DNA of 64,000 nt from Paraglaciecola arctica BSs20135 (GTDB lineage: Bacteria > Pseudomonadota > Gammaproteobacteria > Enterobacterales > Alteromonadaceae), in NCBI RefSeq assembly GCF_000314995.1, contig NZ_BAEO01000027.1, positions 62,001-126,000 of the forward strand, in the 5' to 3' direction. The notes beneath the pieces are model-generated. The model did not search any database. It was not told the origin of the DNA and saw nothing but the letters and a program-made list of their open reading frames with translations. This document shows positions 2,451 to 18,376 of this stretch, one piece after another. A program made the position numbers and the translations under genes. The first letter of the stretch is position 1. Each line of letters starts with the position of its first letter.

Positions 2451-2501
2451 CTCGTTGTTAACCTTCTCGACATCGACAAATTTATTGTTGTGCTAAGACA
2501 C

Positions 2502-2529
2502 AATATACGGGTAGCCAATTTATTTGCAA
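2502..2529 (-). promoter_or_regulatory. candidate sigma-70 promoter for the halogenase pair
   Basis: On the minus strand TTGCAA (2529-2524) is followed after 16 nt by TATATT (2507-2502), about 50 bp upstream of the halogenase start. It lies just beyond the terminator of the receptor gene, so it could drive the halogenases independently. This is a pattern match only. Confidence 0.4.
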
Positions 2530-2550
2530 AAATTACTAAGTAATACCAAT

Positions 2551-2582
2551 TAAAAAAACCGCCACACAAAGTGTGGCGGTTT
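2551..2582 (-). terminator. rho-independent terminator after the TonB-dependent receptor gene
   Basis: A perfect 12-bp stem (2556-2567 with 2571-2582) with a 3-nt loop is followed on the minus strand by a run of seven T. It ends or attenuates the receptor transcript before the halogenase genes. Confidence 0.85.
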
Positions 2583-2620
2583 GAAAGTGTTAAGCAAAGC
2601 TTAACATTCGACACACAAAT

Positions 2621-5600
2621 TTAGAAATTAACACGTGTTCCTAGCGTCCAGCGGGCTTCATACTCGTTTTGAAAAGCTTTCTGAGAAGAGAATTCCAGAT
2701 AAGTCTGTTGATACTCTTCAAGTATGTTTGAGCCGTTAATATATACGCTTACATTCTCGTTTATATTGTAGGTGGCACTGATATCCAGCTGCGAATAGGT
2801 GTCTTGATATAGTGCTTGACCGCCTACTGCACCAATTGAACCTACAGTGATTAGACGCGGGCTAATGGAGTTCCATGCTATACGGGCAGAGAAATCTTCC
2901 TGCTCATACCATACAACAAGGTTATAAGTGTCCTCAGACATGCCTTGGAAGGGCAGTTCACCACCATCTGCAGCTTTGGTTGGTTGTGAACTATCTGCAT
3001 AGGTATAGTTCACATCAAATCCGAGGTTACTTAAAAACGCGTTATCCAGGAAATCACTCAAGGCCACCTTGGCACCTACCTCAAAACCACTTACATCACC
3101 GCCGTCCCCTTGTACTTGAGTGGCAAAAGGCCAGGGCCCGCGGCGAATGCCATCGGCATCGGGCTCATCAATCATGATTGTGCCACCTGTAGTGAAACTT
3201 TCGATGTCAATTTTGTAGGTGGCAAGGAACATCATAGAGGCTTCTCCCGTATACCACTCAGCCGACAATGACAGGTTTTCTGAGCGCCATGGATTCAATC
3301 CCGGGTTGCCGTTTAAGGTGCCGCTGACTACACGTAAACAATCACAGTCTTCGTTATTCACTCGGCCCACGGTTTTACCACCGCCCCAATTTGACAAATT
3401 TAATGGCTGCATATTTTTAGCATAGGCAGCACGAATAATCACATCTTCTGAAGCGGCCAGAGCCAAGTTCAAAGAGGGTAAATAATCGGTATAGCTGCGT
3501 TCGGTTACCGCATCCCCCGTATCCGGGCCTAAACCACTATGTGGTAGGCTGGCGCCGACTATGTTCTGCTTAACATAGAGGTCGGTTTCAACCACTTTCA
3601 TGCCCACGTTACCGCTGACTATGCCATGTTCAAAATTGGCTTGTAGAAAATAATTGGTTTCGTCCAGTTGTACATCATAGGTGGCACCACCATTTTCGGT
3701 ACGTGCAACATTACCAAAGGTGTTCAAATGCCACTGGCGGGGGTCACGGAAGTTTTCCGGATCAATTGACCACACACCAGGAATACCAGTTACACTGCCA
3801 AAATTGGTTTGATAAGACACTGTGGCATGTTCGTCTAAACGTGTCGGAGGCAATAAGGTATAAGGCACCCAAGTACCAGCAGCTAAGTCACCCACAGCTT
3901 CAGCCAAATATTCACCGGCGGCAGGATTTCCCTCACAGCCTGCAGTATTAATAAATTGATCCACTGCCTTCCACTGGGCGATGTCGCAACCATCACCGAA
4001 GTTAGAGGTATAGGTAAATTGGTCGTGATCGACCAGACGTTCACTGACTCGCACACCAAAGTCGACACTGGTAATATAGTCATTGTTTTCCAATGCATAA
4101 TTCCATTTAGAACTGAAAGTATTGATCTCACCTGTGTCATCGGTATTACCCTCAGAAGAGAAAGCACCAATGTGGTAGGAGTCTAAATCGGCCATGTAAT
4201 CGGCAACAGAGCGTGAACCTTTTCCACCATTAACCATTTGTTCAAAACCGCTAAAGACCGGATGTTCGCCCGATGCGTCATAACCAAGAATAAATTGGTC
4301 TTCGATGCCGCCCGGTGCAAAGCTGGCATAACAACCACCGGCGGCACCAACTATGTCTTCACCGTTTACACAATTTTCTCCCTGAGAGAATGCGCCAGGG
4401 CCGGTGACTAGTGTACCCTTGTCTATGCTTAACATGTCACCTTCACCGTAACCGTGACGCATTTTGGCTGTGGCTCTGGCCCGGGTCATTCTTACCTGAC
4501 CGGTTAATGCCCCGCCGTTGTCGTAGTCTAGCTGTAGGTTAAAATTATGGGATTTTTCTTCGTTATTATTGACCTGGGTGAATGACTGCAAACGATAAGA
4601 TTTCATGTCAAAGGCGTTAACCGCGCCCCATGAATCACCGTTTTGATCAGTAAATGTATCACCCGTCCAGCCGTCAGCCGTGGGGTAAGCGTAGTCATTA
4701 AAGGAATTCCAGCGGTTGTTTTGTGACAAACCACGTTTCGCGTTAAAACGGTCTTGTTGGGTATAAAAATAATCTGCAGTTAGAGTGAAACCTTCGCCTA
4801 AGTCTGCCTGAGCCGATACCTGAAAGGCATCCCGTTTACGCTCTTCGGCCTTGTTAAAAGCAGCAAAACCTTGAGGTACAACATGACGAGTGTCTTCACC
4901 ACGGGGGTTTTGGCCCCAAGTAAAGTTGTTATTGGCCGCACCAATTCCGCCGTCTTCAGAGGTATCAAAATAACCACTATAATCGGTGGCTAAGTTAACT
5001 TCAGAGGTGACAGCAGAAAATAACACGCCAAATTTGTCCGCCCGATAACTAACCAAGCCGTTAAGACTCGGATCAGATTCTTTACTGATCGAACCTTGAG
5101 TCACTTCAGCTCCGCCTGCGAAGGTAAAGCCCTCTTCCATATCAAAGGGACGGCGGGTTTTTAAATCGATTGAGCCGGAAATACCAGCGGCACTGTGTTT
5201 GGCCTCACTAGATTTATACACATCTACGCCCGAGAATAATTGAGAGGGTAAATCGCCAAAATCAGCACCCGAAGCGTCAATAGTAGTGGCGCTTAGAAAT
5301 ACTTCCCCGTTCATGGTGGTGTCAACCTGAGGCAAACCACGAATGGCTACAGGGCCACCTTCACCGGCTGTGCGTACAATTTGCACCCCTGTTATACGTT
5401 GCAGTGAATCGGCAATGGTCACATCTGGCAATTTACCAATGTCTTCTGCGGCAATGGCGTCTACCTGTGATGATGCAAAGCGTTTGGCATTGATGCTGAC
5501 AATAGTACTGCCGCGAATACCGCTAATTTGGATGATTTCCAAATCCTTATCAACAGTTTCGGCTTCTTGAGCAACTATTGAAGTGGACAGCAATGTGGCG

Positions 5601-5674
5601 CTAGCTGCGCTAATACACAGTGCGACCTTAATGCTGTGGGATACTTTAGTTAGTCTTGTTTTGTTTGTGTTCAC
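2621..5674 (-). CDS. TonB-dependent receptor, Xanthomonas/Caulobacter type
   Basis: A 1017-residue outer-membrane receptor. It has a signal peptide (cleavage likely after SIVA-Q near residue 36), a TonB-box-like segment (EIIQISGIRGS, about 46-56), a plug domain (about 65-175, with the typical IGKLPDVTIADSLQRITGVQ stretch), and a long beta-barrel ending in phenylalanine (GTRVNF), as expected for BamA-dependent insertion. The start is GTG at 5674, with GAGGA about 8 nt upstream. The length and plug style match the subfamily that imports oligosaccharides and other large nutrients in Alteromonadales, Xanthomonas and Caulobacter; the ligand cannot be told from the sequence. Two LacI-type operators lie 29 and 93 bp upstream of the start codon, so repression by the neighbouring LacI protein is likely. 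Confidence 0.95.
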   Translation of the reverse strand: MNTNKTRLTKVSHSIKVALCISAASATLLSTSIVAQEAETVDKDLEIIQISGIRGSTIVSINAKRFASSQVDAIAAEDIGKLPDVTIADSLQRITGVQIVRTAGEGGPVAIRGLPQVDTTMNGEVFLSATTIDASGADFGDLPSQLFSGVDVYKSSEAKHSAAGISGSIDLKTRRPFDMEEGFTFAGGAEVTQGSISKESDPSLNGLVSYRADKFGVLFSAVTSEVNLATDYSGYFDTSEDGGIGAANNNFTWGQNPRGEDTRHVVPQGFAAFNKAEERKRDAFQVSAQADLGEGFTLTADYFYTQQDRFNAKRGLSQNNRWNSFNDYAYPTADGWTGDTFTDQNGDSWGAVNAFDMKSYRLQSFTQVNNNEEKSHNFNLQLDYDNGGALTGQVRMTRARATAKMRHGYGEGDMLSIDKGTLVTGPGAFSQGENCVNGEDIVGAAGGCYASFAPGGIEDQFILGYDASGEHPVFSGFEQMVNGGKGSRSVADYMADLDSYHIGAFSSEGNTDDTGEINTFSSKWNYALENNDYITSVDFGVRVSERLVDHDQFTYTSNFGDGCDIAQWKAVDQFINTAGCEGNPAAGEYLAEAVGDLAAGTWVPYTLLPPTRLDEHATVSYQTNFGSVTGIPGVWSIDPENFRDPRQWHLNTFGNVARTENGGATYDVQLDETNYFLQANFEHGIVSGNVGMKVVETDLYVKQNIVGASLPHSGLGPDTGDAVTERSYTDYLPSLNLALAASEDVIIRAAYAKNMQPLNLSNWGGGKTVGRVNNEDCDCLRVVSGTLNGNPGLNPWRSENLSLSAEWYTGEASMMFLATYKIDIESFTTGGTIMIDEPDADGIRRGPWPFATQVQGDGGDVSGFEVGAKVALSDFLDNAFLSNLGFDVNYTYADSSQPTKAADGGELPFQGMSEDTYNLVVWYEQEDFSARIAWNSISPRLITVGSIGAVGGQALYQDTYSQLDISATYNINENVSVYINGSNILEEYQQTYLEFSSQKAFQNEYEARWTLGTRVNF

Positions 5675-5702
5675 TATTAGAGTCCTCGTGTTTGGTATTT
5701 TA

Positions 5703-5716
5703 TGACAGCGTTGTCA
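5703..5716. promoter_or_regulatory. LacI-family operator, copy 1
   Basis: TGACAGCGTTGTCA, a near-perfect palindrome centred on CG, as usual for LacI-family operators. It lies 29 bp upstream of the receptor start. An AT-rich TATAAA sequence on the minus strand lies directly upstream of it, so bound repressor would block the start of transcription. Confidence 0.85.
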
Positions 5717-5766
5717 TCTACTGATTTATAAAAAATGAAAACCTGTCTTTATATGTGAATTATTAG

Positions 5767-5780
5767 TGACAGCGTTGTCA
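5767..5780. promoter_or_regulatory. LacI-family operator, copy 2
   Basis: This copy is identical to the sequence at 5703-5716 and is offset from it by 64 bp, close to six helical turns. That fits binding on the same face of the DNA and possible short-range looping across the receptor promoter. Confidence 0.85.
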
Positions 5781-6412
5781 TTCAGGGCAAACTTACAACA
5801 CAGAGAAACATAAGGCAAACATAAATTACAATTTATTAACAAATGCTTTTTGTATTTGCAGAGCGAGAGCATACTTTTATAGGCCGCTAATTTTCAGTGA
5901 ACAGATCCTCAATTCAGTAATCAGGGCATTGGTCATGAGCTTTATCCGCTATCTAGTTATCAATCTAAAAATAATATTTTGGAGATAAATTTTCTTGTGG
6001 CGTTACCTAGATATGAATATTTATCTAAAATTAATAACAGCGCTATATGTGTTAAACCATTATTGGTGACAGCGTTGTCATTTATAGGTAATCTAATTAA
6101 AATAAATAGTTGTGCAACAAATTTCACAAAACCAACATTAATTGACTTGTACGATTAAACTATAAATAGGCTGCTTTTCATTCAAAAAATAAGACCTAAA
6201 AACTAATTAAGTTACTGAAATAAATGAGTTTCTGTTTGTGTTGGGATCGGGGGTTATCGTTAGGATCACAATCTAAAAATTGTATTGGTGCGATGATTTT
6301 TACAAAAGTAACACAAGGTAACTTGTGGTTTATCCATTACAATGCTTTTTCTATTGTCATGGATAAGCTTTTAGTTATTATCTAGGCTTAGCGTTAATGG
6401 CTAATTATACAA
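5781..6412. other. intergenic region upstream of the LacI-family gene
   Basis: An AT-rich gap of about 630 bp without a convincing reading frame. Apart from the operator copy at 6067-6080 I see no clear promoter, hairpin terminator or repeat. The regulator's promoter must lie here, but no -35/-10 pair stands out. Confidence 0.5.
6067..6080. promoter_or_regulatory. LacI-family operator, copy 3
   Basis: Third identical TGACAGCGTTGTCA, exactly 300 bp from copy 2 and about 350 bp before the LacI-family gene. It may serve autoregulation of the regulator or a larger repression loop. Confidence 0.8.
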
Positions 6413-6430
6413 ATGGTGCTTGATACTGTG

Positions 6431-7477
6431 ATGAAAACAAAAACTACCATTAAAGAAGTGGCTGAATTAGCTGGTGTGTCTTTTAAAACCGTTTCCCGTG
6501 TAATCAATAATGAAGGGTCGGTCCGTAAGGAAACCTTGCAAAAGGTTAACGACGCTATTAGTGAATTAAACTATCAGCCTAATAATGCTGCGCGAAATTT
6601 AGCGGGAAATAAATCTTATTCTCTAGGGTATGTTTACGACAACCCTAACGCCTATTATGTTCTCGACATGCAAAATGGAATATTGGCGGAATGTAGAGAG
6701 CGAGGCTATGAACTGGTGATCCATCCTTGTTCCGCCAATAACAAACATATTGTAGATGAATTAGCGACTATGATTAAACGTTCACAATTGGCTGGATTGA
6801 TTATTTCACCACCGCTATCAGAAATGCCGGAAGTGCTTAGCGGCTTAGATGCAATGAATATTCCGTTTATTCGAATTATCTCAGCCAGTGAAGTGAGTCA
6901 AGAGTCGTCTCCTTGCGTGTATATTAATGACCGTGATGCAGCCTTTGATATCACCGAGCACTTAATCGAACAAGGCCATACTAAGATTGCGTTTTTACGA
7001 GGGGACGATAATCACCGTTCGAGTCATGAGCGTAAGATAGGTTATTTAAATGCTTTAAAGAAGCACGATATATCCATTAATGAGGATTATCAGATTGATG
7101 GCTCTTATTCATTTGAGTTTGGCGTTCAAGGAGCGAAACAATTATTGTCCTTGTCAGAGCCTCCTACTGGGATATTTTCGTGTAACGATGAAATAGCAGC
7201 AGGTGCGTTATTTGCAGTGCGCTTGCAAGGGCTTAATGTGCCTGATGATATGGCGATTGCAGGTTTTGAGGATAGTCCATTCTCCCGCCAAACTTGGCCC
7301 ATGTTAACTACTGCAGCACAGCCAACTAATACTATTGCCCGTAAAGCTGCCGCGTCTTTGATCCAGCATTTAGTGCATTTACGTTCTCCTAAAACTAGTG
7401 TCGATAGCATTCCTCATTTGCATTATAGGCCGCAATTAGTTAAACGAGAATCAACTCTTTCAGTACCTTCGAAATGA
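6431..7477 (+). CDS. LacI-family transcriptional regulator
   Basis: About 348 residues. The N-terminal helix-turn-helix reads TIKEVAELAGVSFKTVSRVIN, followed by the hinge helix (NNAARNLAGN) and a periplasmic-binding-protein-like sensor domain to the end. I prefer the ATG at 6431, which places MKTKTTIKEVA at the N-terminus as in relatives; an ATG at 6413 adds six residues. Neither has a good ribosome binding site. It is divergent from the TonB-dependent receptor, and three copies of one CG-centred palindrome lie between them. Local control of the receptor, and perhaps of the halogenases, by a sugar-like inducer is the natural inference; the effector is unknown. Confidence 0.93.
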   Translation: MKTKTTIKEVAELAGVSFKTVSRVINNEGSVRKETLQKVNDAISELNYQPNNAARNLAGNKSYSLGYVYDNPNAYYVLDMQNGILAECRERGYELVIHPCSANNKHIVDELATMIKRSQLAGLIISPPLSEMPEVLSGLDAMNIPFIRIISASEVSQESSPCVYINDRDAAFDITEHLIEQGHTKIAFLRGDDNHRSSHERKIGYLNALKKHDISINEDYQIDGSYSFEFGVQGAKQLLSLSEPPTGIFSCNDEIAAGALFAVRLQGLNVPDDMAIAGFEDSPFSRQTWPMLTTAAQPTNTIARKAAASLIQHLVHLRSPKTSVDSIPHLHYRPQLVKRESTLSVPSK

Positions 7478-7634
7478 TTCTTTGACTAAACCTTTTGGTT
7501 ATTAATTGTCGACTGAGGTACTGATGCTTGGGTGCTAACCAATTCGTTGATATAAGTGTTGCTTGCTCATTTATCGATAGCTAATCTTCCGACATCTAAT
7601 TCAATTTAATATGTTTTTTGAACCTAGAGGCAGA

Positions 7635-7991
7635 TTACAACACCAAGTTTCTGGGAGGAGAGCGGCTAATAATAGTGGTTGAATCGAGATTTGTTTTTGC
7701 ACTATCTTCAGGTTGATAGACTAAAATGTAGCTGGCGATAAAAATTGCGTCACCCGCTTGCAGTGTGTATTCGCTCTCTAATACCTTACCGTTAATTTTG
7801 GTGCCATTTACTCCAAGATTTTGAATGACTCTATCGCTACCAACCGACTTGATAATGGCGTGTTTACGAGACACTTTTGAGTCTGGGATACTCACAACAC
7901 AATTTGCGTCGCGACCTAAAAGAAATTCACCATCGTCTAGTTTAAACGAGGCTTGAAGTTCATAGTTAGCGTACATATCTAGTCGAGCCAT
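7635..7991 (-). CDS. FHA domain protein
   Basis: A 118-residue protein made almost entirely of one forkhead-associated domain. The conserved residues are visible: LGRD (Gly-Arg, about 25-28), SRKH (about 41-44) and GVNGTKING (about 60-68), the set that binds phosphothreonine. There is no signal peptide or membrane segment, and the C-terminal 25 residues are polar and probably flexible. AGGAAATT precedes the ATG. It is divergent from the patatin/Dev operon. No Ser/Thr kinase gene is in the window, so its partner is not known. Confidence 0.85.
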   Translation of the reverse strand: MARLDMYANYELQASFKLDDGEFLLGRDANCVVSIPDSKVSRKHAIIKSVGSDRVIQNLGVNGTKINGKVLESEYTLQAGDAIFIASYILVYQPEDSAKTNLDSTTIISRSPPRNLVL

Positions 7992-8304
7992 AATTTCCTA
8001 TTACCTAGTGGTTCCAAAGTTAATCTCAACAACTTGGATGGAAAAATCATTATTTTACCGCTAGACAACTTAACCGACAATTTCCATTCCTTGTGTTTGG
8101 CAGTGTACTATTTTGTATGGAATTCGTACAGCGGCTTGTATACACTCCATTATAGGAATTTATAAAAAAATGTACCATAAACTGCAAGATTTAAAGTCAA
8201 TCCGTTAAGAACTGTTGATCTTAACTCAATTAGGCTTCTCAAATTTAGCTGTATTTGGCGAAGCCAATAGTTGGCCCTAAATTGATTGATGGAATAATAG
8301 ATAA
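7992..8304. other. divergent intergenic region between the FHA gene and the phospholipase operon
   Basis: 313 bp of AT-rich sequence. It must hold promoters for both directions, but no confident -35/-10 pair, operator palindrome or reading frame was identified. Confidence 0.4.
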
Positions 8305-10554
8305 TTGGACACCTTCTCGCCACAAATTGCCTCTGATCAAGACTATGCTTCAGCTCAAAGCAATACACTAAATGAACAAGAACGACAAATTTTCACAGAA
8401 TATGCAGAATTAAAAAAAGTCTGTGCCAATGATTATTTGGTGTCCGAAGGTGATGGCGATACATGCTTTTATTTGTTGGTAACTGGAAACCTAGTTAAAG
8501 AGCAGTCTGGAAAAGCAAAGATGTTAGGGATGTACCAACAACTGGAAGAAGGGGAGCTGATTGGTCTATTAAGCTTTTTTACTGAAGAAAAACATTTAAA
8601 TTCCATTCTTGCCCGTTCTGATAGCGAAGTCGCAATCGTTACTCGAGAAATTTACGATAGTTTGTTAACTGAGCAGCCACTATTGTGGAAAAAACTCCAA
8701 AGTATTGGCCTGCATATGATGCGTAAGCATCGCTTATCAATCCACCTTGATAAATTATTTGGACCTTTCGGTGTCATGTTGCCTTTTGTGCTGACTGATA
8801 TAGAAAATGAACTTGAGTGGGTTACTCTCCCTAGTGGGCAGACTTTGTTCCGCCAAGGTGATGTGCCAGATGGTGCCTATATTTTGGTGGCTGGACGTCT
8901 GCAAATGACTACAAAATTGCTAGACGGAAGAGAAGTTGTCAATGATGCAATATTAGCTGGCGAAACTATCGGAGAAACAGCCCTTTTAACCAACCAGCCG
9001 CAAGCCCACACCGTATATGCCGTAAGGGATAGTGAATTAGTTAAACTATCGAATTACAGTTTTGAATTGATGCTGCAACGTAATACTCGAGCAATACACA
9101 ATATTGCGCAAATATTGGGTAAACGTCTTACCAATTTGCCGGTCGAAAAAGGTACCACTAAAGCACCAGTTCGATGCATCAGCTTACTTCCTGCAAATGA
9201 TAACATTCAACTCTCAAATTTTGCCGAGCAGCTATGCTCAACACTTTCAGAGTATGGTTCCACTAAGCATCTAAGTAGTGACATAGTGAATTCTGAACTC
9301 GCTACTGAAGACATTGCTCAAAGTCATGAAAACGAAGCGACTAGTTTGCGATTGGTAGAGTGGTTGCATTCACAAGAAGATAACTGCCAGTTTTTACTGT
9401 ATCAGTCTGACCAGAAATGGTCAGAATGGAGTGCCAGATGTGTTCGCCAAACAGATCAAGTCATAGTGGTTGCCGAGGCAAATTCAGAACCAAATTTGAC
9501 ATCTCTAGCGCCACATTTATGCGGTGAGCGACAGCGTTGGAGTTTGGTATTGTTGCATGACTTCGACACTGACCGACCAAGAAACACTGCGGCTTGGCTG
9601 AAGTCAGCTTCGCCAGATGCTATTTACCATGTGCGTAAAGAACACGCTGCAGACTTGGCAAGATTAACGAGGATCTTATCAGGTAATGCCATAAGTTTGG
9701 TTTTAGGCGGTGGTGGTGCTCGAGGCTTTGCTCATTTGGGTGTCATTAAAGCGATGGAAGAATTAAATATACCCATTGATATGGTGGGAGGCACCAGCAT
9801 GGGCGCACCTATCGCTGGCATAGTTGCGCAAGGTGCTACCGCAGATGAAGTAATGCGGCGGGCTAAACAGGCCTATCACAAAATTATAGATTTCACTTTT
9901 CCGCTGGTATCTGTAATAGCGGGAAAACGCATTAGCCAAACGATAAGAGAGCAGACTCAAGGATGGGACATTGAAGATTATTGGTTACCATTTTTTTGTG
10001 TCTCAACTAATTTGACAACAGCTTTACCGGTTATTCATCAACGTGGAGATTCTTGGCTAGCTATCCGCAGTAGTGTCTCCATTCCAGGGGTTTTACCCCC
10101 AGTGCCTCATGGGGATCATTTGTTAGTTGATGGTGGTGTATTAAATAATTTACCAGTGGATATTATGCGAGAAATCAATCCTTTCGGGGTAATTATTGCT
10201 GTGGATGTCGCTCCACCTGTGGGACCAAAAGCAAAATCAGACTACGGTACAGAAATATCTGGATGGTATTTACTTATTCAACGTTTATTTCCATGGTTAA
10301 AAGCACCGTCTGTGCCGAGTCTAGGTTCAACCATTATGCAAGCAATGGTGGCCGGGTCTGCCCTTAAGCGACAACAAATAATTGAACAAAAACAAGCAGA
10401 CTTGTACCTCAATATTCATGTGAAAGGAGTAGGTATGCTGCAATTTGATGCACAAGCTAAAGCAACAAAAATTGGCTATAAAGGTAGCTTTGATAGGCTT
10501 AAAGCTCATTTTAAGTCGTCCGATGAAAAGTCTGAAATAAGTCAGGAGGAATAA
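8305..10554 (+). CDS. patatin-like phospholipase with two cNMP-binding-like domains (NTE type)
   Basis: 749 residues. Two cyclic-nucleotide-binding-like domains (about 30-145 and 165-275) are followed by a linker domain and a C-terminal patatin domain. The patatin oxyanion motif GGGGARG is near 467-473, the nucleophile is Ser498 in GTSMG, and the dyad aspartate is Asp609 in DGG. This is the architecture of neuropathy-target-esterase-type lysophospholipases. In the second domain the phosphate-binding cassette reads GETIGETALLTNQPQAHT, with Gln where the ligand-binding Arg is usual, so cNMP binding is doubtful. The frame opens right after a stop and the first usable start is TTG at 8305. The stop is 1 nt before the Dev-type fusion-protein gene, so this enzyme is probably made together with the exporter. 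Confidence 0.9.
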   Translation: MDTFSPQIASDQDYASAQSNTLNEQERQIFTEYAELKKVCANDYLVSEGDGDTCFYLLVTGNLVKEQSGKAKMLGMYQQLEEGELIGLLSFFTEEKHLNSILARSDSEVAIVTREIYDSLLTEQPLLWKKLQSIGLHMMRKHRLSIHLDKLFGPFGVMLPFVLTDIENELEWVTLPSGQTLFRQGDVPDGAYILVAGRLQMTTKLLDGREVVNDAILAGETIGETALLTNQPQAHTVYAVRDSELVKLSNYSFELMLQRNTRAIHNIAQILGKRLTNLPVEKGTTKAPVRCISLLPANDNIQLSNFAEQLCSTLSEYGSTKHLSSDIVNSELATEDIAQSHENEATSLRLVEWLHSQEDNCQFLLYQSDQKWSEWSARCVRQTDQVIVVAEANSEPNLTSLAPHLCGERQRWSLVLLHDFDTDRPRNTAAWLKSASPDAIYHVRKEHAADLARLTRILSGNAISLVLGGGGARGFAHLGVIKAMEELNIPIDMVGGTSMGAPIAGIVAQGATADEVMRRAKQAYHKIIDFTFPLVSVIAGKRISQTIREQTQGWDIEDYWLPFFCVSTNLTTALPVIHQRGDSWLAIRSSVSIPGVLPPVPHGDHLLVDGGVLNNLPVDIMREINPFGVIIAVDVAPPVGPKAKSDYGTEISGWYLLIQRLFPWLKAPSVPSLGSTIMQAMVAGSALKRQQIIEQKQADLYLNIHVKGVGMLQFDAQAKATKIGYKGSFDRLKAHFKSSDEKSEISQEE

Positions 10555-10555
10555 T

Positions 10556-11473
10556 ATGAAGGATGCATTAGTAAGGACAATGTTTGTCGCTTTCTGTTTA
10601 TGCAGTCAATTGTTACTTGCCAGTGATATAACCTCAGTCGCTGCGCTAGGTCGAATTGAACCTGAAAACGGAATTATTGTCATTGGAGCCCCCTCCACAC
10701 CAGAGTCAACCGCAGGATCTTTGATTTCTAAGTTACATGTTAGAGAAGGTGACAGTGTTACAGTCGGTCAGTTGCTGGCTGAAATAGATTCAGCTGCTGT
10801 AGCAAAGGCGTTAGTTGTCGAAATGGAAAAAGAATATGAGTTTGCGGTGCGCCAATTTGATGCTGACAACAGTATTGCTGACGCTGCTTGTGTACAGGCT
10901 GATACCGCTAAAAGTGAGGCGGGTAGGCGAGAGAAGTTATTAAGTCAAGGATTGGCACCTGCAGAAGAAGTTGAACAGGCGCAAGGTTATGCCAAGTCTC
11001 TTAAGGCGTCTTGTCAATCGGCTCGTGTCTCTGCCACTGCAGGCGAGATGGCGATTGAAGTTGCTAAGGCTAGGTTAGCCCGTCGTAGTGCCGAATATCA
11101 GCGTAAACTGATTTATTCCCCCCTTGATGGCATGGTTTTACAGGTAAATGCTTACCCAGGTGAATTTGTGCAATTAAATGGCATTTTGGAATTGGCCGCA
11201 GTAGAAAATATGTATGCTGTGGCTGAAATTTACGAAACAGATATAAAGCGCGTTCACATAGGTCAAAAAGCAACAATAAGTAGTGATGCGTTAACAGAAA
11301 AACTAACGGGAAAAGTGACCTATATCCAGCCTAAAGTACAAAAGCATGATGCCATAGGCACTGATCCGGCGGCACGTAAAGACGCGCGAATAATCGAAGT
11401 TGATGTGCTGTTAGACAATCCGCAAGCTGTGAGGCGTTTAATCAACTTGCAAGTTGAAATTGTGCTTGAGTAA
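10556..11473 (+). CDS. devB: DevB-type periplasmic adaptor of an ABC exporter
   Basis: 305 residues with an N-terminal signal or anchor (about 1-23), then the DevB hallmark GRIEPENG. It has the two halves of a biotinyl-lipoyl domain (about 50-82 and 180-215) split by an alpha-helical hairpin of about 90 residues, and a C-terminal beta-barrel. It is a membrane fusion protein that links the DevC/DevA inner-membrane pump to an outer-membrane TolC-like channel. A strong AGGAGGA lies 5 nt before the ATG. It lies between the phospholipase (1-nt gap) and devC (8-nt gap). In heterocystous cyanobacteria DevBCA exports glycolipid; here the cargo is unknown. No outer-membrane channel gene is nearby. Confidence 0.88.
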   Translation: MKDALVRTMFVAFCLCSQLLLASDITSVAALGRIEPENGIIVIGAPSTPESTAGSLISKLHVREGDSVTVGQLLAEIDSAAVAKALVVEMEKEYEFAVRQFDADNSIADAACVQADTAKSEAGRREKLLSQGLAPAEEVEQAQGYAKSLKASCQSARVSATAGEMAIEVAKARLARRSAEYQRKLIYSPLDGMVLQVNAYPGEFVQLNGILELAAVENMYAVAEIYETDIKRVHIGQKATISSDALTEKLTGKVTYIQPKVQKHDAIGTDPAARKDARIIEVDVLLDNPQAVRRLINLQVEIVLE

Positions 11474-11481
11474 TAAATAAC

Positions 11482-12639
11482 ATGATACCAATGCAAACTA
11501 AAGTTGCGTGGTTGCAGCTAAAACATCGGCCGGTGCGGCTTATTATTGCCTTGTGTGGAATTGGCTTTGCGGTATTACTAATCCTTATGCAATTGGGCTT
11601 TCGCTCCGCTTTGTTTGAAAGTGCCGTTCGCTTCCACGAAAAGCTTAATTACGATATTGCACTGTTTAGCCCAGACAGTGTGTTTATTGTTCGTCCACAG
11701 GCATTCTCGCAGCGCCGTCTTTATCAAGCACTTTCATTGGACGAAGTTGCACAGGTGATGCCGATCAACATCTTTCCGGGGCTATGGAAAAATCCATGGA
11801 ACCATGGCAGTAGGAGCATTAATACAGTGGGTTTTGAGCCTGGGGACCCGATATTTGACAACCCCGAATTTGATAAACTCCGGCCCTTGCTTAAAGCGCG
11901 GGATGCCATGATTTTTGACTCAGCTTCACGACCTGAATTTGGCCCTGTTAAGGAATCAATGAGCCAAAATTATCTGTTGGTTACTGAAATAAACAATCGA
12001 GAAATTAGTATTGTTGGTTTGTATAAAATGGGTACGTCTTTTGGATTGGATGGCAGCGTATTTATGAGTACAGATAATTGGCATCGATTATTTCCTGAGC
12101 GCACCCGAGAAAACATAGAGCTTGGCTTAATAAAGCTCAAACTGGGCAGTAACGCCAACAATGTTCGCGATAAACTCAGAGAATATTTGCCCGGTGATGT
12201 TTTGGTCATGACAAAGCAAGATTTTGTAGATAGGGAAACTGCTTATTGGAATTCAGCGACACCTATAGGCTATATCTTTGCATTTGGGGCAATAATGGGC
12301 TTTGTAGTAGGCGCCATAATCGTATATCAGATATTGTTTGCCGGTGTGTCGGAGCATCTTAGTGAATACGCAACTTTGCGTGCCATGGGGTATTCCAGCA
12401 CATTTGTATCAGGCATAGTGGTTCAACAAGCTGTGTTATTGGGTGCCCTTGGCTACATTCCTGGTGTAGCTGTGGTTATGTGGTTGTATTCAGTCGCAGC
12501 CGCTGCAACTAATTTACCCCTTTATTTAACCCAAGATAGAGCCATATTTGTATTCGCATTAACCATGATAATGTGTGCCATTTCAGCCTTGCTGAGCGTT
12601 AGAAAAGTCGCTCGTCTCGATCCTGCCGAGGTATTTTAA
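11482..12639 (+). CDS. devC: DevC-type ABC exporter permease
   Basis: A 385-residue MacB/FtsX-like permease with one N-terminal membrane helix (about 18-40), a large periplasmic domain (about 45-255) and three C-terminal helices (about 260-285, 310-340, 350-372). The stretch RETAYWNSATPIGYIFAFG, then YQILFAGVSEHLSEYATLRAMGY, is characteristic of DevC. It ends in LDPAEVF, like FtsX-type permeases. Its TAA stop shares its last A with the ATG of the ATPase gene, implying translational coupling. It forms the membrane part of the DevBCA exporter. Confidence 0.9.
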   Translation: MIPMQTKVAWLQLKHRPVRLIIALCGIGFAVLLILMQLGFRSALFESAVRFHEKLNYDIALFSPDSVFIVRPQAFSQRRLYQALSLDEVAQVMPINIFPGLWKNPWNHGSRSINTVGFEPGDPIFDNPEFDKLRPLLKARDAMIFDSASRPEFGPVKESMSQNYLLVTEINNREISIVGLYKMGTSFGLDGSVFMSTDNWHRLFPERTRENIELGLIKLKLGSNANNVRDKLREYLPGDVLVMTKQDFVDRETAYWNSATPIGYIFAFGAIMGFVVGAIIVYQILFAGVSEHLSEYATLRAMGYSSTFVSGIVVQQAVLLGALGYIPGVAVVMWLYSVAAAATNLPLYLTQDRAIFVFALTMIMCAISALLSVRKVARLDPAEVF

Positions 12640-13931
12640 TGTCCTCAGATATTTCAATTAGTGTTAAAAATCTCGACTTCTCTTTTGGTAGTGGCGATCT
12701 TAGAAAACAAATATTATTTGATATCAGTACCGATATTAAAGCCGGTGAAATTGTCATAGTTACCGGGCCTTCAGGCTCAGGAAAAACCACTCTTTTAACT
12801 ATTGTTAGCGCTTTAAGAACGGTCAATACTGGCAGCGTGCAAATACTTGGCAAAGAATTAAGTGGCGCAAAAAGTAAAGCATTGGAGCAGGTTCGAAGAA
12901 ATATTGGTTTCATTTTCCAACAACATAACCTTATCGGTGCACTAACAGCACTGCAAAATGTGGTGCTTGGTATACGTATAAGCGGCAAGTTTAAAGGTAG
13001 CCAAATAGAACAAAGAGCTATTGAATATTTACATATTGTGGGGTTAGGTGACCGTATTCATTATCATCCTGAGCAATTATCAGGGGGGCAAAGACAAAGA
13101 GTTGCTATTGCAAGAGCAATGGCTGCTGAGCCGAAAATTTTGATGGCGGATGAACCCACGGCTTCGTTGGATAAACAGTCAGGTCGAGATGTGGTCGACA
13201 GAATGAAAAGTTTGGCTAAGGAACAAGGCTCAACTATTTTGTTGGTAACTCATGACAACCGTATCCTCGATGTTGCTGACCGGATCATCTATCTGGAAGA
13301 TGGACATATCGCCAGTTTTAATGAGGCAGTCATTGATAACAGTCAGCATATGATGAAAGTCGTAGCTGATACACCATCTGAGCGGCCAAATAACCAAAAT
13401 GAAAGTGATTTTGATTCTCAATACTTTATGGTTGACCTCTCATTACAATCGCAACGGATTTTGGCACTTAAAAGTAAAATTAATCCTGTGGCGTTCAAAG
13501 GTGTACTAACAAATGCGTTAACCGACTTTACCGCTCAGGCTGCTGAAAAATTTAATACACATGGATTTCCGTTGTATCTGGCGACTGAGGACGGATGGAA
13601 TGCTTTGCCACTGGGAGATGTCAGTGGTCAACATATTGCTACTTATCCAAATCAGGGAGGGCTTGTTAATGCAGTAAGAGACTTGAATAAGTCAATTTTG
13701 GTTAACAACTCGCTGTTAGACAAACAGATAGACCCGGTCATTGATAAACAGTTTGAAGAAGCGCAAATGATTATGGCGGTTCCATTAAAGCGACGAACGG
13801 GTGAAGTTTTTGCTGTTGTTGAGTGTCGACGTTTGATGAATAAGCCTATTTTTACAGAACGAGATCTAAAGTTATTTGAGCTGTTTTGTACTAGTATCAC
13901 AGGTCTGTTGGATGCATATACGAAGTTATGA
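12639..13931 (+). CDS. devA: DevA-type ABC exporter ATPase with C-terminal GAF-like domain
   Basis: 430 residues, about 190 longer than ordinary DevA/LolD ATPases. Residues 1-235 are a complete nucleotide-binding domain: Walker A GPSGSGKT (43-50), signature LSGGQRQR (147-154), Walker B LMADEP with Asp171-Glu172, and the H-loop THD near 205. Residues about 250-430 look like a GAF domain: a helix-rich start, a central strand pair (MIMAVPLKRRTGEVFAVVEC) and a final helix (FTERDLKLFELFCTSITGLL). A GAF domain on an export ATPase suggests control by a small ligand or redox signal, which is inference. It overlaps the devC stop by 1 nt and is followed by a terminator. Confidence 0.9.
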   Translation: MSSDISISVKNLDFSFGSGDLRKQILFDISTDIKAGEIVIVTGPSGSGKTTLLTIVSALRTVNTGSVQILGKELSGAKSKALEQVRRNIGFIFQQHNLIGALTALQNVVLGIRISGKFKGSQIEQRAIEYLHIVGLGDRIHYHPEQLSGGQRQRVAIARAMAAEPKILMADEPTASLDKQSGRDVVDRMKSLAKEQGSTILLVTHDNRILDVADRIIYLEDGHIASFNEAVIDNSQHMMKVVADTPSERPNNQNESDFDSQYFMVDLSLQSQRILALKSKINPVAFKGVLTNALTDFTAQAAEKFNTHGFPLYLATEDGWNALPLGDVSGQHIATYPNQGGLVNAVRDLNKSILVNNSLLDKQIDPVIDKQFEEAQMIMAVPLKRRTGEVFAVVECRRLMNKPIFTERDLKLFELFCTSITGLLDAYTKL

Positions 13932-14022: not shown

Positions 14023-17000
14023 TTAGGCTTGTGATGGTGATGTATCTATTGGTGCTGTTTTTTTGCGATTGAATATTTTTCCAAACAGACCAAAAAACCA
14101 AGAAAGTCCGGCTTTAAGATCTTCTAGTATCATATATAAACATGGTACTAATACCAAAGTAACCAAGGTTGCATAGAGCACAGCAAAACCTAAGGCAACT
14201 GCCATAGGTATGACAATTTTAGCTTGAGTGCTGGTTTCAAACATTATGGGTAATACACCCACAAAGGTGGTAATTGAAGTCAATGTAATGGCCCTAAAAC
14301 GCGCGCATCCCGCTTCTGTTACTGCGGCTAATAAAGCATGTCCTTGTTTGCGCCTTTGATTGACAAAATCTGTCATCACTAAGCTGTCGTTGATCACTAC
14401 CCCTGCAGCGGCAATCAAGCCAAAAAGTGACAACATGCTTAGGTCTATACCAAAGATAAAATGCCCCCAAATTGCACCGGTCAAACTAAAAGGGATAACC
14501 GACATAATGATTAAGGGTTGACCATAACTTTTTAATGGAATAGCTAGCAAAATATAAATCATTAACATACCAACAATAAAGAATACTAGTTGTTCACTCT
14601 CTTGGGCTTGTTGTTCTTCAATGGAACCACCTAACTCAGATTTTACCCCTGGGAAATTAGATTTAAGTTGAGGTAATAGTTTTTCCTCTACTTCGCTAAT
14701 CACTGTATTGGGTTCTACGACTTCTTCGTCAATAGATCCATATACATAGACGCTTCTATAACCTTCTTCACGACGAATATAATTAATGCCTGGTTTTTCG
14801 GTTAAGGTAACCACATCTCCGAGCATAACTTCTTGCCCTTGGGGTGTAGTGATCACTGCATATTTCAACTCAGCAAAACGTTCCCGGGTGAGTTTAGGGT
14901 AACGCACCATGACTCTCACTTCTTCTCCGTCACGGATCACTCTTTGGGCTTCGCCGCCAAAAAAGCTAGCGCCCACTTGATTCGCGATGTTGGTTAGGTC
15001 TAAACCTAGATCGTAAGCTACAGGTAATAAATCTATTTGGATTTCTTTACTTGCAGGATCGATGCTTGAACTGATGTCAAATAATCCCTCCTGTTGTTGC
15101 AACATGGAGATAAATTCACGCCCAGCAGCATTAAGTAATTCAATATCTGCGCCATACAACATGAAACCAAATTCACCATCACCGCCACCGCCACCCATGA
15201 GATTATCTTGGATGGTAATTGACTTCATGCCTGGGATAATAGGCATGGCCTCACGCCATCTTCTAGCTAACTCAAAAGCGTCAAAATGTCGATCTTCTTC
15301 ATTGACCAGAGGGACCAAAATCCGGCCCGCTGTGCGACCTTGATTAAACACCATAATGTCTTTCATCATGCTGCTGCCAAATTCATCCTCGATATTTTTG
15401 TCGACAGCATAAACCATAGTTTCTATAGATTTAAGCGCGTTTAAAGTTGTGTCATCTGAGACATTATCATTCATCTCAATATTGATGCCGGGAAAATCAT
15501 GGGCCACTTTAGGCGACATAACTGTTCTAACGTAGTCCCCTTGTATCAGACCAATGCTCATAAATAAAAGTGCGAGGAAGGAAGTCAATACGACCCAGCG
15601 CCATTCTATGCAGCGAGAGACAAAGTTTTTGTAGGGACCGTTTACAAAGCTAAAAAATCTTCTATTAAATCGTGCTCGCCAACTACTTTCTTTGATAGGA
15701 GTGAACTTCATATGGGCTAGATGCGCCGGTAAAATCCACTTAGATTCTATTAGACTAAATACTAAACATAAAATTACCACTACTGAAATATTGGTAAAAA
15801 ATGCTGCTTCTGGACCTGAAGCAAATAATGACGGGGCGAATACTGCTATGGTAGTTAGTACTCCAAAAGTTGCAGGTGTCGCTACTTTTTTAGCCCCTCG
15901 GACAACACTTTCTACGCCGCCGCCATTTTCTTCGATTTCGGTGTACGCGGCTTCACCTATTACTATGGCATCATCAACCACTATACCAAGCACCATAATA
16001 AAGGCGAATAATGATAAAACGTTAATGGTCACACCAAAAACAGGCATCATCATAATAGCACCCAAGAAACATACTGGCAGGCCAAGCATTACCCAAAATG
16101 CTAATCTGAAACGTAAAAAGATGGTTAACATCAAAGCGACTAAAAGTGCACCCTGAAACAGGTTTTTGAGCATCATGTCTAAACGTGAATTCAAGTAGAA
16201 AGTCATGTCTACCAAAACTTTTAATTGCAGCCCTTGAGGTAAGGTCTTGTTGCGTGCTTCTACATAGGCAAGCACTGACTCAGCAATGGGCACAGAGCTT
16301 TGTTCTTTAGTGGCTTTGACACTTAAAGACATGGCGTTTACGCCAGAATATTTGAAATATCGCTCACCTTCAGTAAAGCCATCTTTTATTTGGGCGATAT
16401 CTTCAAGTAATACTTTGGCGCCATTTTCACCAATTTTGACGGGGATCTTTCTGAATTCATCGCCATTGTATAGCTGATTTTCGACTCGCACTGCCACTAT
16501 GCCTGCATCAGTACGTAACTGTCCGGCAGAAATATCCGCAGAAAAACGCCTAATCGCTTGGGTTACGTCGGCAATAGATAAATTATATTTACGTAAGGTT
16601 TCTGGCTTAATTTCTATGGCTATTTCATCTTCAGGGGCCTCCAATTGAACCAAAGATACATTTTGTAATGCCAGTAATTCATCTTCAACTTGTTTGGCAA
16701 TAGGCTTTAATTCGCTTATTGGCAAGTCACCTACTAGTGCCATTTCGATCACGTCTTGTTGAAATTCAATTTGAGAGATATTAGGTGGCTCCATATCAGC
16801 TGGGAAAGTCGCGATACTGTCTATCCTAGCTTTAACCTTATCTAATACTTCAGATAACTCTTCGTCTGGGTCTATCTCTAGAGTAATTGAGCCACTGCCG
16901 CGACGCGCTCGAGAGGTACTTTCTTTAATTTCAGTAATGTCTTTGAGGGCTTCTTCCATTTTAATTAAAATGCTTTGCTCAATCTCTTGAGGTGAGGCAC

Positions 17001-17217
17001 CTCGATAGACTGAAGTCACACTAATATAGTTAATTTCAATATTAGGGAACATTTGTCGTTGAATAGTGAAATAGCTAAAAATGCCCATAATGATAATAAA
17101 CATCATCATTAAGTTGGCGGCAACAGAGTTATTGGCAAAATACGCAATTAAACCTGTTTGTTTGGGCTCGGGCGTTTGTGGTTCGGTAGCTGGAATGCCT
17201 GTATTTTCAGTAGACAT
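14023..17217 (-). CDS. RND efflux transporter, inner-membrane pump
   Basis: A 1064-residue protein of AcrB/MexB/CusA type, with the first membrane helix at about 25-48, large periplasmic loops after helices 1 and 7, and about 12 helices. The proton-relay aspartates are present as Asp415-Asp416 in VLGIVVDDAIVIGE. The charged periplasmic domains and the GASPQEIEQSI segment match the hydrophobe/amphiphile branch. AAGGG lies 8 nt before the ATG. It is 10 bp downstream of its adaptor gene; no outer-membrane channel gene follows, so a shared TolC is likely. Substrates cannot be predicted. Confidence 0.93.
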   Translation of the reverse strand: MSTENTGIPATEPQTPEPKQTGLIAYFANNSVAANLMMMFIIIMGIFSYFTIQRQMFPNIEINYISVTSVYRGASPQEIEQSILIKMEEALKDITEIKESTSRARRGSGSITLEIDPDEELSEVLDKVKARIDSIATFPADMEPPNISQIEFQQDVIEMALVGDLPISELKPIAKQVEDELLALQNVSLVQLEAPEDEIAIEIKPETLRKYNLSIADVTQAIRRFSADISAGQLRTDAGIVAVRVENQLYNGDEFRKIPVKIGENGAKVLLEDIAQIKDGFTEGERYFKYSGVNAMSLSVKATKEQSSVPIAESVLAYVEARNKTLPQGLQLKVLVDMTFYLNSRLDMMLKNLFQGALLVALMLTIFLRFRLAFWVMLGLPVCFLGAIMMMPVFGVTINVLSLFAFIMVLGIVVDDAIVIGEAAYTEIEENGGGVESVVRGAKKVATPATFGVLTTIAVFAPSLFASGPEAAFFTNISVVVILCLVFSLIESKWILPAHLAHMKFTPIKESSWRARFNRRFFSFVNGPYKNFVSRCIEWRWVVLTSFLALLFMSIGLIQGDYVRTVMSPKVAHDFPGINIEMNDNVSDDTTLNALKSIETMVYAVDKNIEDEFGSSMMKDIMVFNQGRTAGRILVPLVNEEDRHFDAFELARRWREAMPIIPGMKSITIQDNLMGGGGGDGEFGFMLYGADIELLNAAGREFISMLQQQEGLFDISSSIDPASKEIQIDLLPVAYDLGLDLTNIANQVGASFFGGEAQRVIRDGEEVRVMVRYPKLTRERFAELKYAVITTPQGQEVMLGDVVTLTEKPGINYIRREEGYRSVYVYGSIDEEVVEPNTVISEVEEKLLPQLKSNFPGVKSELGGSIEEQQAQESEQLVFFIVGMLMIYILLAIPLKSYGQPLIIMSVIPFSLTGAIWGHFIFGIDLSMLSLFGLIAAAGVVINDSLVMTDFVNQRRKQGHALLAAVTEAGCARFRAITLTSITTFVGVLPIMFETSTQAKIVIPMAVALGFAVLYATLVTLVLVPCLYMILEDLKAGLSWFFGLFGKIFNRKKTAPIDTSPSQA

Positions 17218-17227
17218 GATGGTGCCC

Positions 17228-18376
17228 TTATAATGATTTCTGAACGACTAAGTCTTCTTTAGGCTTGGCAATTTTAACTTTCATGCCTTTCTGCGGATAT
17301 TCAGGCAGAGTCGTCACTAAGGTATCTTGGTTTTGGAGGCCTTCGCTGATCAAAAAATATGCCCCTTCTTCACGTAAAATTTCAACTCGTTGCGGTTGCA
17401 TCTGTTGTTCTGCATCTAACAACCAAATAATACGGTTATTGACTAATTCTTGGGGTAAACGATATACCTGATTAAGGGTTTTTCCTGCAAAGTCTACTTC
17501 AACATAATGGCCAAATTTAAGTGGAGGTAGAGAAGATTTTAAACTGTAAGGGTCTTCTATTCTCACTACCAGCTGACTCATGCGAGTACTTTTGTCAATA
17601 ATGCCTAAATCTCGAGTAACTTTACCCTCGCGAGTAATAGCGTTGTAACCTTTGGTACTGATAGTGGCGACTTGTTGGGTAATGTCGTTGGGTAAAAATT
17701 CTCTGTCAAAGCCAGCTATAGGAAATAACACTTCTGCAGACTCAATATTATATAATTCGCCTACTTGGGAGCCTTGATTCACATATTGCCCAACACCTAA
17801 ATCACGCTTCACAACCAAAGCGTCGTAGGGGGCTTTGATTTCACAATTATCTAGATCTCGTTGAGCTATTTTTATTCTTGCTTGAGCTGATTTCATCGAT
17901 GCTTGGGCACTTAATATTTGTGGTTTACGCAAATATAAATCGGATACTTTACTGCCTTTTGCTTCTCGTTCGGCTACTTCTGCTCGCGCTTGTTCTTCAA
18001 TTAGGTTTGCTCTGGCTAAACTAAGGTCCGCTTCGGCTTGTAATAAGGCGGCTTCATAAGTATCAGCCTCTATGGTAAACAGGGTGTCGCCACGTAAAAC
18101 TAAGCCACCAGGCACGAAGTTAGGATGCCAAGTTAACACTTCGCCGGAAACTTGAGCAGAAATCATAGTGCTTTCAAGAGGTTTAACCTCACCGTAGCTG
18201 GTAATTCTAACTTGGTAGTCTTCAGCAATGGCGGTTTCAGTTTTTACAGTAGGGCGTGTATCTACTGGCTTTTTATCTTCATCTTCTTCACCAGAAGCTT
18301 TAATTGCAGACATGCCGCCAATACCAATCACCAGTATTACTAGGGGAAATATTCCTTTAAACCACTTCTTTTTCAT
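17228..18376 (-). CDS. RND efflux periplasmic adaptor (HlyD/AcrA family)
   Basis: 382 residues. It has a single N-terminal hydrophobic segment (about 6-25), a lipoyl half-motif around 60-100, an alpha-helical hairpin (about 105-165), the second lipoyl half (KAPYDALVVKRDLGVGQYVNQGSQVG) and beta-barrel and membrane-proximal domains. The acidic stretch SGEEDEDKK after the anchor is unusual but looks like a linker. It is the first gene of the pump operon and lies 10 bp before the transporter gene. Confidence 0.92.
   Translation of the reverse strand: MKKKWFKGIFPLVILVIGIGGMSAIKASGEEDEDKKPVDTRPTVKTETAIAEDYQVRITSYGEVKPLESTMISAQVSGEVLTWHPNFVPGGLVLRGDTLFTIEADTYEAALLQAEADLSLARANLIEEQARAEVAEREAKGSKVSDLYLRKPQILSAQASMKSAQARIKIAQRDLDNCEIKAPYDALVVKRDLGVGQYVNQGSQVGELYNIESAEVLFPIAGFDREFLPNDITQQVATISTKGYNAITREGKVTRDLGIIDKSTRMSQLVVRIEDPYSLKSSLPPLKFGHYVEVDFAGKTLNQVYRLPQELVNNRIIWLLDAEQQMQPQRVEILREEGAYFLISEGLQNQDTLVTTLPEYPQKGMKVKIAKPKEDLVVQKSL

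Follow-up and report, generated by a model that had tools for sequence, protein, structure and literature searches.

An NTE-type phospholipase gene kept beside a DevBCA-type exporter in Paraglaciecola arctica and its relatives: a putative phospholipase-coupled export module

Paraglaciecola arctica BSs20135 carries, within the 64,000 nucleotides of contig NZ_BAEO01000027.1 analysed here (positions 62,001 to 126,000; hereafter the window, to which all coordinates refer unless a locus is named), an operon in which a patatin phospholipase of the neuropathy target esterase (NTE) type is followed by the three subunits of an ATP-binding cassette (ABC) exporter of the DevBCA family. Enzyme and exporter form a conserved unit in a clade of related loci. 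On balance, and judging from sequence comparison, we favour reading the locus as a phospholipase-coupled tripartite exporter, which in the relatives is probably gated by cyclic nucleotides and in the genus of the window would be subject to some other control.

Organisation and conservation of the module

The operon lies on the plus strand and comprises the genes of the phospholipase (8305-10554; 749 aa, with a TTG start), a DevB-family periplasmic adaptor (10556-11473), an FtsX/MacB-like permease of the DevC family (11482-12639) and a DevA-family ATPase with a C-terminal GAF extension (12639-13931). Four genes with these limits had been described in an earlier reading of the window from its letters alone (the sequence-only reading), and on re-reading the sequence the spacing stood as well, with 1 nt between the NTE and DevB genes, 8 nt between those of DevB and DevC, and a 1-nt overlap of the DevC and DevA genes. 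The exporter identities proposed there also hold, since each subunit exceeds the cut-off of its curated family (DevB, TIGR02971, 189 bits against 129; DevC, TIGR01185, 420 against 290; DevA, TIGR02982, 324 against 295.8); DevC is in addition recognised as FtsX by Pfam (47.8 bits, cut-off 25.5). What that reading overlooked was the GAF domain, whose attachment explains the DevA length of 430 aa, as well as the cyclic-nucleotide theme of the relatives and the membership of an FHA gene in the unit.

The sequence-only reading had proposed a search for co-occurrence of enzyme and exporter in other genomes, and its outcome indicates a conserved unit rather than a chance neighbourhood: a phospholipase gene adjoins devBCA at 23 of the 24 loci of one DevC clade (the window, L064-L067, L179, L203-L218 and the congeneric loci L227 and L228; L and G numbers denote loci and genomes). 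At the 24th, L205, the contig ends just past devA, and the locus is counted as unknown. Accidental linkage was rejected on this adjacency. The sequence-only reading knew of no named system of this form, and a literature search limited to open-licence papers likewise found none on the pairing.

The DevC tree places 21 clade rows, the window and L205 among them, on one side of a 100/99 branch, while L227, L228 and the partial L218 were not rows of this tree and were assigned by identity. L218 (9130-11014) has a short devC and a devA divided between two reading frames, which reflects either decay or an assembly error; the locus was left out of the DevC tree and of the GAF counts given below. The enzyme gene comes first at 6 of the 23 linked loci (the window, L066, L067, L179, L227 and L228) and last at the remaining 17, ten of which show a 4-nt overlap of devA and the enzyme gene; at L066, 422 nt separate the enzyme gene from devB. 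On a DevC tree of 20 rows, the two gene orders imply a minimum of two changes.

At the loci read outside the clade the pairing was not encountered with an NTE-type enzyme. A scan of named genomes with DevC as the query gave at least 578 confirmed matches, and among the best 80 of these an NTE gene lies beside devBCA at four loci (L064-L067), which are also the closest to the window (DevC 64-67% identical), and is lacking at 76, some of them on short contigs. Neither an NTE nor another patatin of our panel was found at 12 further DevBCA loci (L058-L063, L176, L219-L223); flank lengths differ between loci, and the absences are lower bounds. A DevC above the family cut-off occurs in 2 of 229 genomes of the window's class and in 2 of 197 of its order, and NTE_Ploop proteins in 17 of 229 genomes of the class. 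With a model of the clade's own DevC (E 1e-60), 3 of 369 genomes of the class matched, only that of the window falling within the clade. The same model matched 4 of 246 genomes of the window's family; three of these belong to the clade, each being one of the 12 listed members of the window's genus. It further matched 2 of 147 genomes (both belonging to the clade) in the order of G564 and 5 of 194 (none belonging to it) in that of G570. In the order of G562 this DevC is frequent, with matches in 18 of 151 genomes (16 above 640 bits, one truncated match of the clade type and one of another type).

The phospholipase and its origin

Pfam recovers both cNMP-like domains that the sequence-only reading had attributed to the enzyme (two cNMP_binding stretches), together with NTE_Ploop (PF24179) and Patatin, at scores above the cut-offs (109.5, 100.4 and 93.1 bits for cNMP domains, NTE_Ploop and patatin, respectively). 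The patatin domain (residues 465-620; 9697-10164, plus strand; PF01734, E 3.2e-26) has intact catalytic motifs, namely GGGGARG in the glycine-rich loop, GTSMG for the GXSXG serine and VDGG for the DG[GA] aspartate, which we take to constitute the catalytic signature of patatins. In its domains and catalytic residues the protein thus resembles the NTE family, from which it differs by its gene linkage to an exporter and by the lack of a membrane anchor. Animal NTE has an N-terminal membrane anchor, whereas hydropathy reveals no transmembrane stretch in the window enzyme (highest 19-residue value 1.28), which therefore should act in the cytoplasm. In the enzymes of 20 relatives the hydropathy peaks (0.92-1.79) similarly lie inside the protein rather than at the N-terminus. 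The AlphaFold model of the enzyme is weak (mean pLDDT, the model's confidence score, 49).

As far as the trees indicate, the window's genus has most likely exchanged its phospholipase for an enzyme of another NTE branch. In a tree of 37 NTE rows, 18 clade enzymes group together (100/98), and the window enzyme falls outside, amid NTEs from genomes that have no DevC above the cut-off. Its nearest neighbour is L041, whose enzyme of 757 aa is close in length to that of the window, while clade enzymes measure about 600 aa; the genes of L227 and L228 have the same length as the window gene and likewise start with TTG. The truncated enzymes of L065 and L203 were excluded from this tree, and 12 of 16 other NTE loci passed the length and motif filter. 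A common origin of the window and clade enzymes is disfavoured: a single clade for all module NTEs is rejected with p 0.0007 in the 37-row set, and p is 0.056 in a 28-row set (the 37 rows minus five long and six distant ones, plus the two congeners), with the placement unchanged. L087 offers another case of a patatin paired with the exporter: a protein of 334 aa from a different patatin subfamily, the sole patatin match of that draft genome, is encoded directly upstream of devB; the DevA of this locus runs off the contig.

Signatures of cyclic-nucleotide control

Bacterial NTE-type enzymes bear domains of the cyclic-nucleotide type, and in the clade both the phospholipase and the ATPase have signatures of this kind. 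The residues in question are an arginine of the cNMP domain and the GAF motif N-K/R...F...DE, both of which we presume to be cyclic-nucleotide contacts. The arginine is kept in all 20 other readable clade enzymes; N-R and F of the GAF motif are kept in all 20 other readable clade GAFs, and the final Glu in 19. L065, the sole relative whose GAF was searched against solved structures, has as its best match 1ykd (CyaB2, E 4.7e-40), followed by the phosphodiesterases PDE2A and PDE5A; it differs from these GAFs in sitting on the ATPase of an ABC exporter.

The window and its congeners depart from this pattern. In the second cNMP-fold domain (residues 173-260; 8821-9084, plus strand) of the window, L227 and L228, Gln replaces the arginine, and their GAFs have Leu for the final Glu and Arg in the aligned Asn column. 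The combination of ligand arginine and GAF motif that would mark a cyclic-nucleotide-gated pair is absent from the window proteins. The GAF of the window DevA (residues about 293-420; 13515-13898, plus strand) is diverged as a whole: it scores 25.4 bits against a Pfam GAF cut-off of 22.4, lies barely above the GAF_2 cut-off (29.8 against 28.6 bits) and, searched alone, has no significant match among solved structures (best E 0.44). Its mean identity to the 20 relatives is 22%, compared with 65% among the relatives themselves, while the ATPase part reaches 67% (75% among relatives); similarly, 19 of 59 conserved GAF columns are kept as against 115 of 129 ATPase columns. The congeners conserve the second cNMP domain about as tightly as the patatin domain (rate of nonsynonymous change, dN, 0.017-0.078 and 0.026-0.058, respectively), and the GAF is looser (64-75% identity). 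This conservation among congeners suggests that both domains are still in use in the genus. The AlphaFold model of DevA is weak as well (mean pLDDT 65), and its best 50 fold matches are ABC ATPases or transporters, none of which informs the GAF.

The tail of DevA varies by lineage, given that a Halieaceae DevA (L094:11128-12222) ends in a TerB domain (PF05099) in place of the GAF. At L070 (3827-5023) a cNMP-binding domain is joined to an Rce1-like membrane protease domain, beside DevB and a GAF-bearing DevA.

Class III cyclases occur near the module more often than expected. Across 22 genomes, that of the window included, PF00211 gave 37 matches, five of which lie within 5 kb of the module where 0.17 would be expected (P about 1e-6, uncorrected for relatedness). 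These five (L064, L065, L207, L213 and L215) come from five of the 22 genomes, and three stand together in the DevC tree, so that they are not all independent. All are fused to a receiver domain and have a histidine kinase nearby (from Pfam for L064 and L065, from similarity for L207, L213 and L215), and in G562, G563, G803 and G843 the near cyclase is the only PF00211 match of the genome. L066 and L067 each have, downstream of devA, a small cyclase-like protein without a Pfam match; that of L066 matches the solved structure 3mr7 (E 1.3e-6). The window genome encodes two cyclases, on other contigs. In view of the CRP-type fold of the enzyme, the PDE/CyaB-type GAF signatures of the ATPase and the cyclase at some loci, the clade probably uses a cyclic nucleotide as a common switch for enzyme and pump.

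In Nostoc sp. RI_552 (L091:13547-15784) CyaB-like stretches of the GAF and cyclase types follow devA after about 1.5 kb, the GAF not being fused to DevA; two small single-domain cNMP-binding proteins stand beside the module in L209 (12014-12780), divergent from devB; and the NTE closest to that of the window has as a neighbour, some 0.9 kb away, a 1103-aa protein containing a cyclase-like stretch (L229:3681-6992).

Cyclases, cNMP domains and a phospholipase could also belong to a cyclic-nucleotide anti-phage defence (Pycsar-like or CBASS-like) with the phospholipase as effector, and indeed PADLOC matches the cNMP domains to TIR/PycTIR effectors, the response-regulator cyclases to PycC models, the L087 patatin to CBASS phospholipase effectors (E 2.3e-43) and the window DevA to mad3 (E 1.4e-32). 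Most of these matches, however, cover a shared single domain only, as those of the ATPase probably do too; DevB, DevC, the FHA protein and the two small cyclase-like proteins have no PADLOC match, and no cyclase was found at 15 of 22 loci (CD-NTases were not searched for). We consider a defence function very improbable.

A divergent FHA gene as part of the unit

Upstream of the operon and divergent from it, as the sequence-only reading had noted, lies the gene of a stand-alone FHA-domain protein of 118 aa (7635-7991, minus strand; Pfam FHA E 9.9e-13). In the congener L228 similarity to the window spans 7634-13929, from the stop codon of the FHA gene to that of devA, and the flanking genes at either end are different ones. 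Because this exact five-gene block sits at a different site there, the FHA gene is taken as part of the unit in the genus; no FHA match was found at the remaining, non-congeneric clade loci. All five genes are under purifying selection, the ratio of dN to the synonymous rate (dS) being 0.01-0.15 in congener pairs with computable dS, rough values since dS is high. Together with the lost arginine and the diverged GAF, the FHA gene that travels with the operon makes another control signal probable in the window's genus.

The intergenic region between the FHA and NTE genes contains a block (8102-8147) that is nearly invariant across the three species, while the surrounding L228 sequence diverges. 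It includes the near-palindrome TGTATGGAATTCGTACA, a candidate operator or promoter element, whose only match at up to three mismatches in the window is this one (0.19 expected). Promoter and terminator scans did not rise above the level of shuffled sequence, and no RNA element scored above the Rfam gathering score between 6000 and 18000.

Proposed mechanism and alternative explanations

In the scheme that we propose, the soluble cytoplasmic enzyme would deacylate a phospholipid or lysophospholipid at the inner face of the inner membrane, whereas DevC-DevA, with DevB and a presumed TolC-type channel encoded elsewhere, would take up lipid from the periplasmic side and release it outside. Enzyme and pump would thus work on opposite faces of the inner membrane: a lipid made or limited by the enzyme would cross the bilayer and be removed by the pump, its cargo being either the enzyme product or a lipid whose availability the enzyme governs. 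Both the direction of transport and the nature of the cargo are conjectural here, also as regards the phospholipase product, or repair or lysolipid stream, suggested in the sequence-only reading, and a lipid cargo should be taken as likely rather than demonstrated. The subunits recall the heterocyst glycolipid exporter DevBCA-HgdD of Anabaena, with which they share the curated families and the gene order B-C-A; the linked phospholipase and the GAF on DevA are additions; the best 80 matches include cyanobacterial loci, and neither feature turned up there.

The nearest known principle, by analogy, is YbbAP-TesA of Escherichia coli, likewise a Type VII ABC transporter with a lipid hydrolase partner according to the available portion of PMC12646458. 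A machine of this kind for extraction and hydrolysis or for membrane repair, in which damaged lipids or lysolipids handled by the transporter are broken down by the phospholipase and few leave the cell on balance, would be in keeping with the presence of YbbAP and YbbAP-TesA entries among the best 50 fold matches of DevA, which concern its ATPase part. TesA, though, is a periplasmic enzyme of the GDSL family, whereas the patatin of the window has no transmembrane stretch and would act on the opposite side of the membrane; furthermore, the module possesses regulatory domains and a DevB adaptor, and the same portion of that source mentions no adaptor for YbbAP. We regard such a machine as rather unlikely. 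For a possible mycobacterial parallel, in which a cNMP-patatin enzyme would be fused to a transporter, a search of the open-licence literature gave no confirmation.

Still less probable, in our opinion, is a pump for drugs or metabolites with a non-lipid cargo, beside which the phospholipase would merely tune the membrane or a signal. In Anabaena, drug resistance and ethidium efflux depend on some of the DevBCA paralogues, according to the review PMC8277102, and the convergent neighbour of the operon is an RND-type pump pair (14023-18376), which adjoins it in L227 as well. Its genes were not found in 20 kb around the L228 site, so that the pair is placed outside the unit, and it is the phospholipase that adjoins the pump at 23 of 24 loci while other neighbours vary.

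Several observations weigh against a phospholipase-coupled exporter under cyclic-nucleotide control, or against parts of it. The related Anabaena pumps comprise drug-resistance pumps besides the glycolipid exporter (PMC8277102), and a GAF-bearing DevA occurs without a patatin at L068 (flanks of about 9 and 1.6 kb) and L069 (about 9 and 9 kb). The 24 clade loci represent one clade and not 24 independent events, and the ancestry test of the enzymes lost strength in the smaller set. A cyclase is present at only 7 of 22 loci, even counting the two small cyclase-like proteins; in seven other genomes with a single PF00211 match this lies away from the module, and the class III cyclase panel gave no match in the window. 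Finally, the window GAF retains an F near the motif and an N-K pair a few residues beyond the aligned Asn column (the pair is shared by L228 and absent in L227), so that loss of its function is not certain.

A broader interpretation, which we put forward tentatively and with some doubt, is that these loci represent a class of second-messenger-gated ABC exporters, in which a cyclic nucleotide acting on the GAF of the ATPase and on the CRP-type fold of the phospholipase couples lipid release to export; in the window's genus the enzyme would have been exchanged and the control rewired, perhaps with a phosphothreonine input through the FHA protein. If true, selection keeps the pairing with a phospholipase and not a particular enzyme. 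A fixed exporter partner also offers a concrete test of the cyclic-nucleotide-type domains in bacterial NTE enzymes, and lipid release as a signalled process becomes testable.

Further observations

On the far side of the FHA gene, a stretch of the window (927-7477) encodes a tryptophan-halogenase-like protein beside a TonB-type receptor, both recognised by eye, and a LacI regulator found by Pfam. Among the DevC loci, L086 comes from a metagenome-assembled genome labelled Tatlockia, and its DevC falls inside the cyanobacterial group, which points to either transfer or mis-binning.

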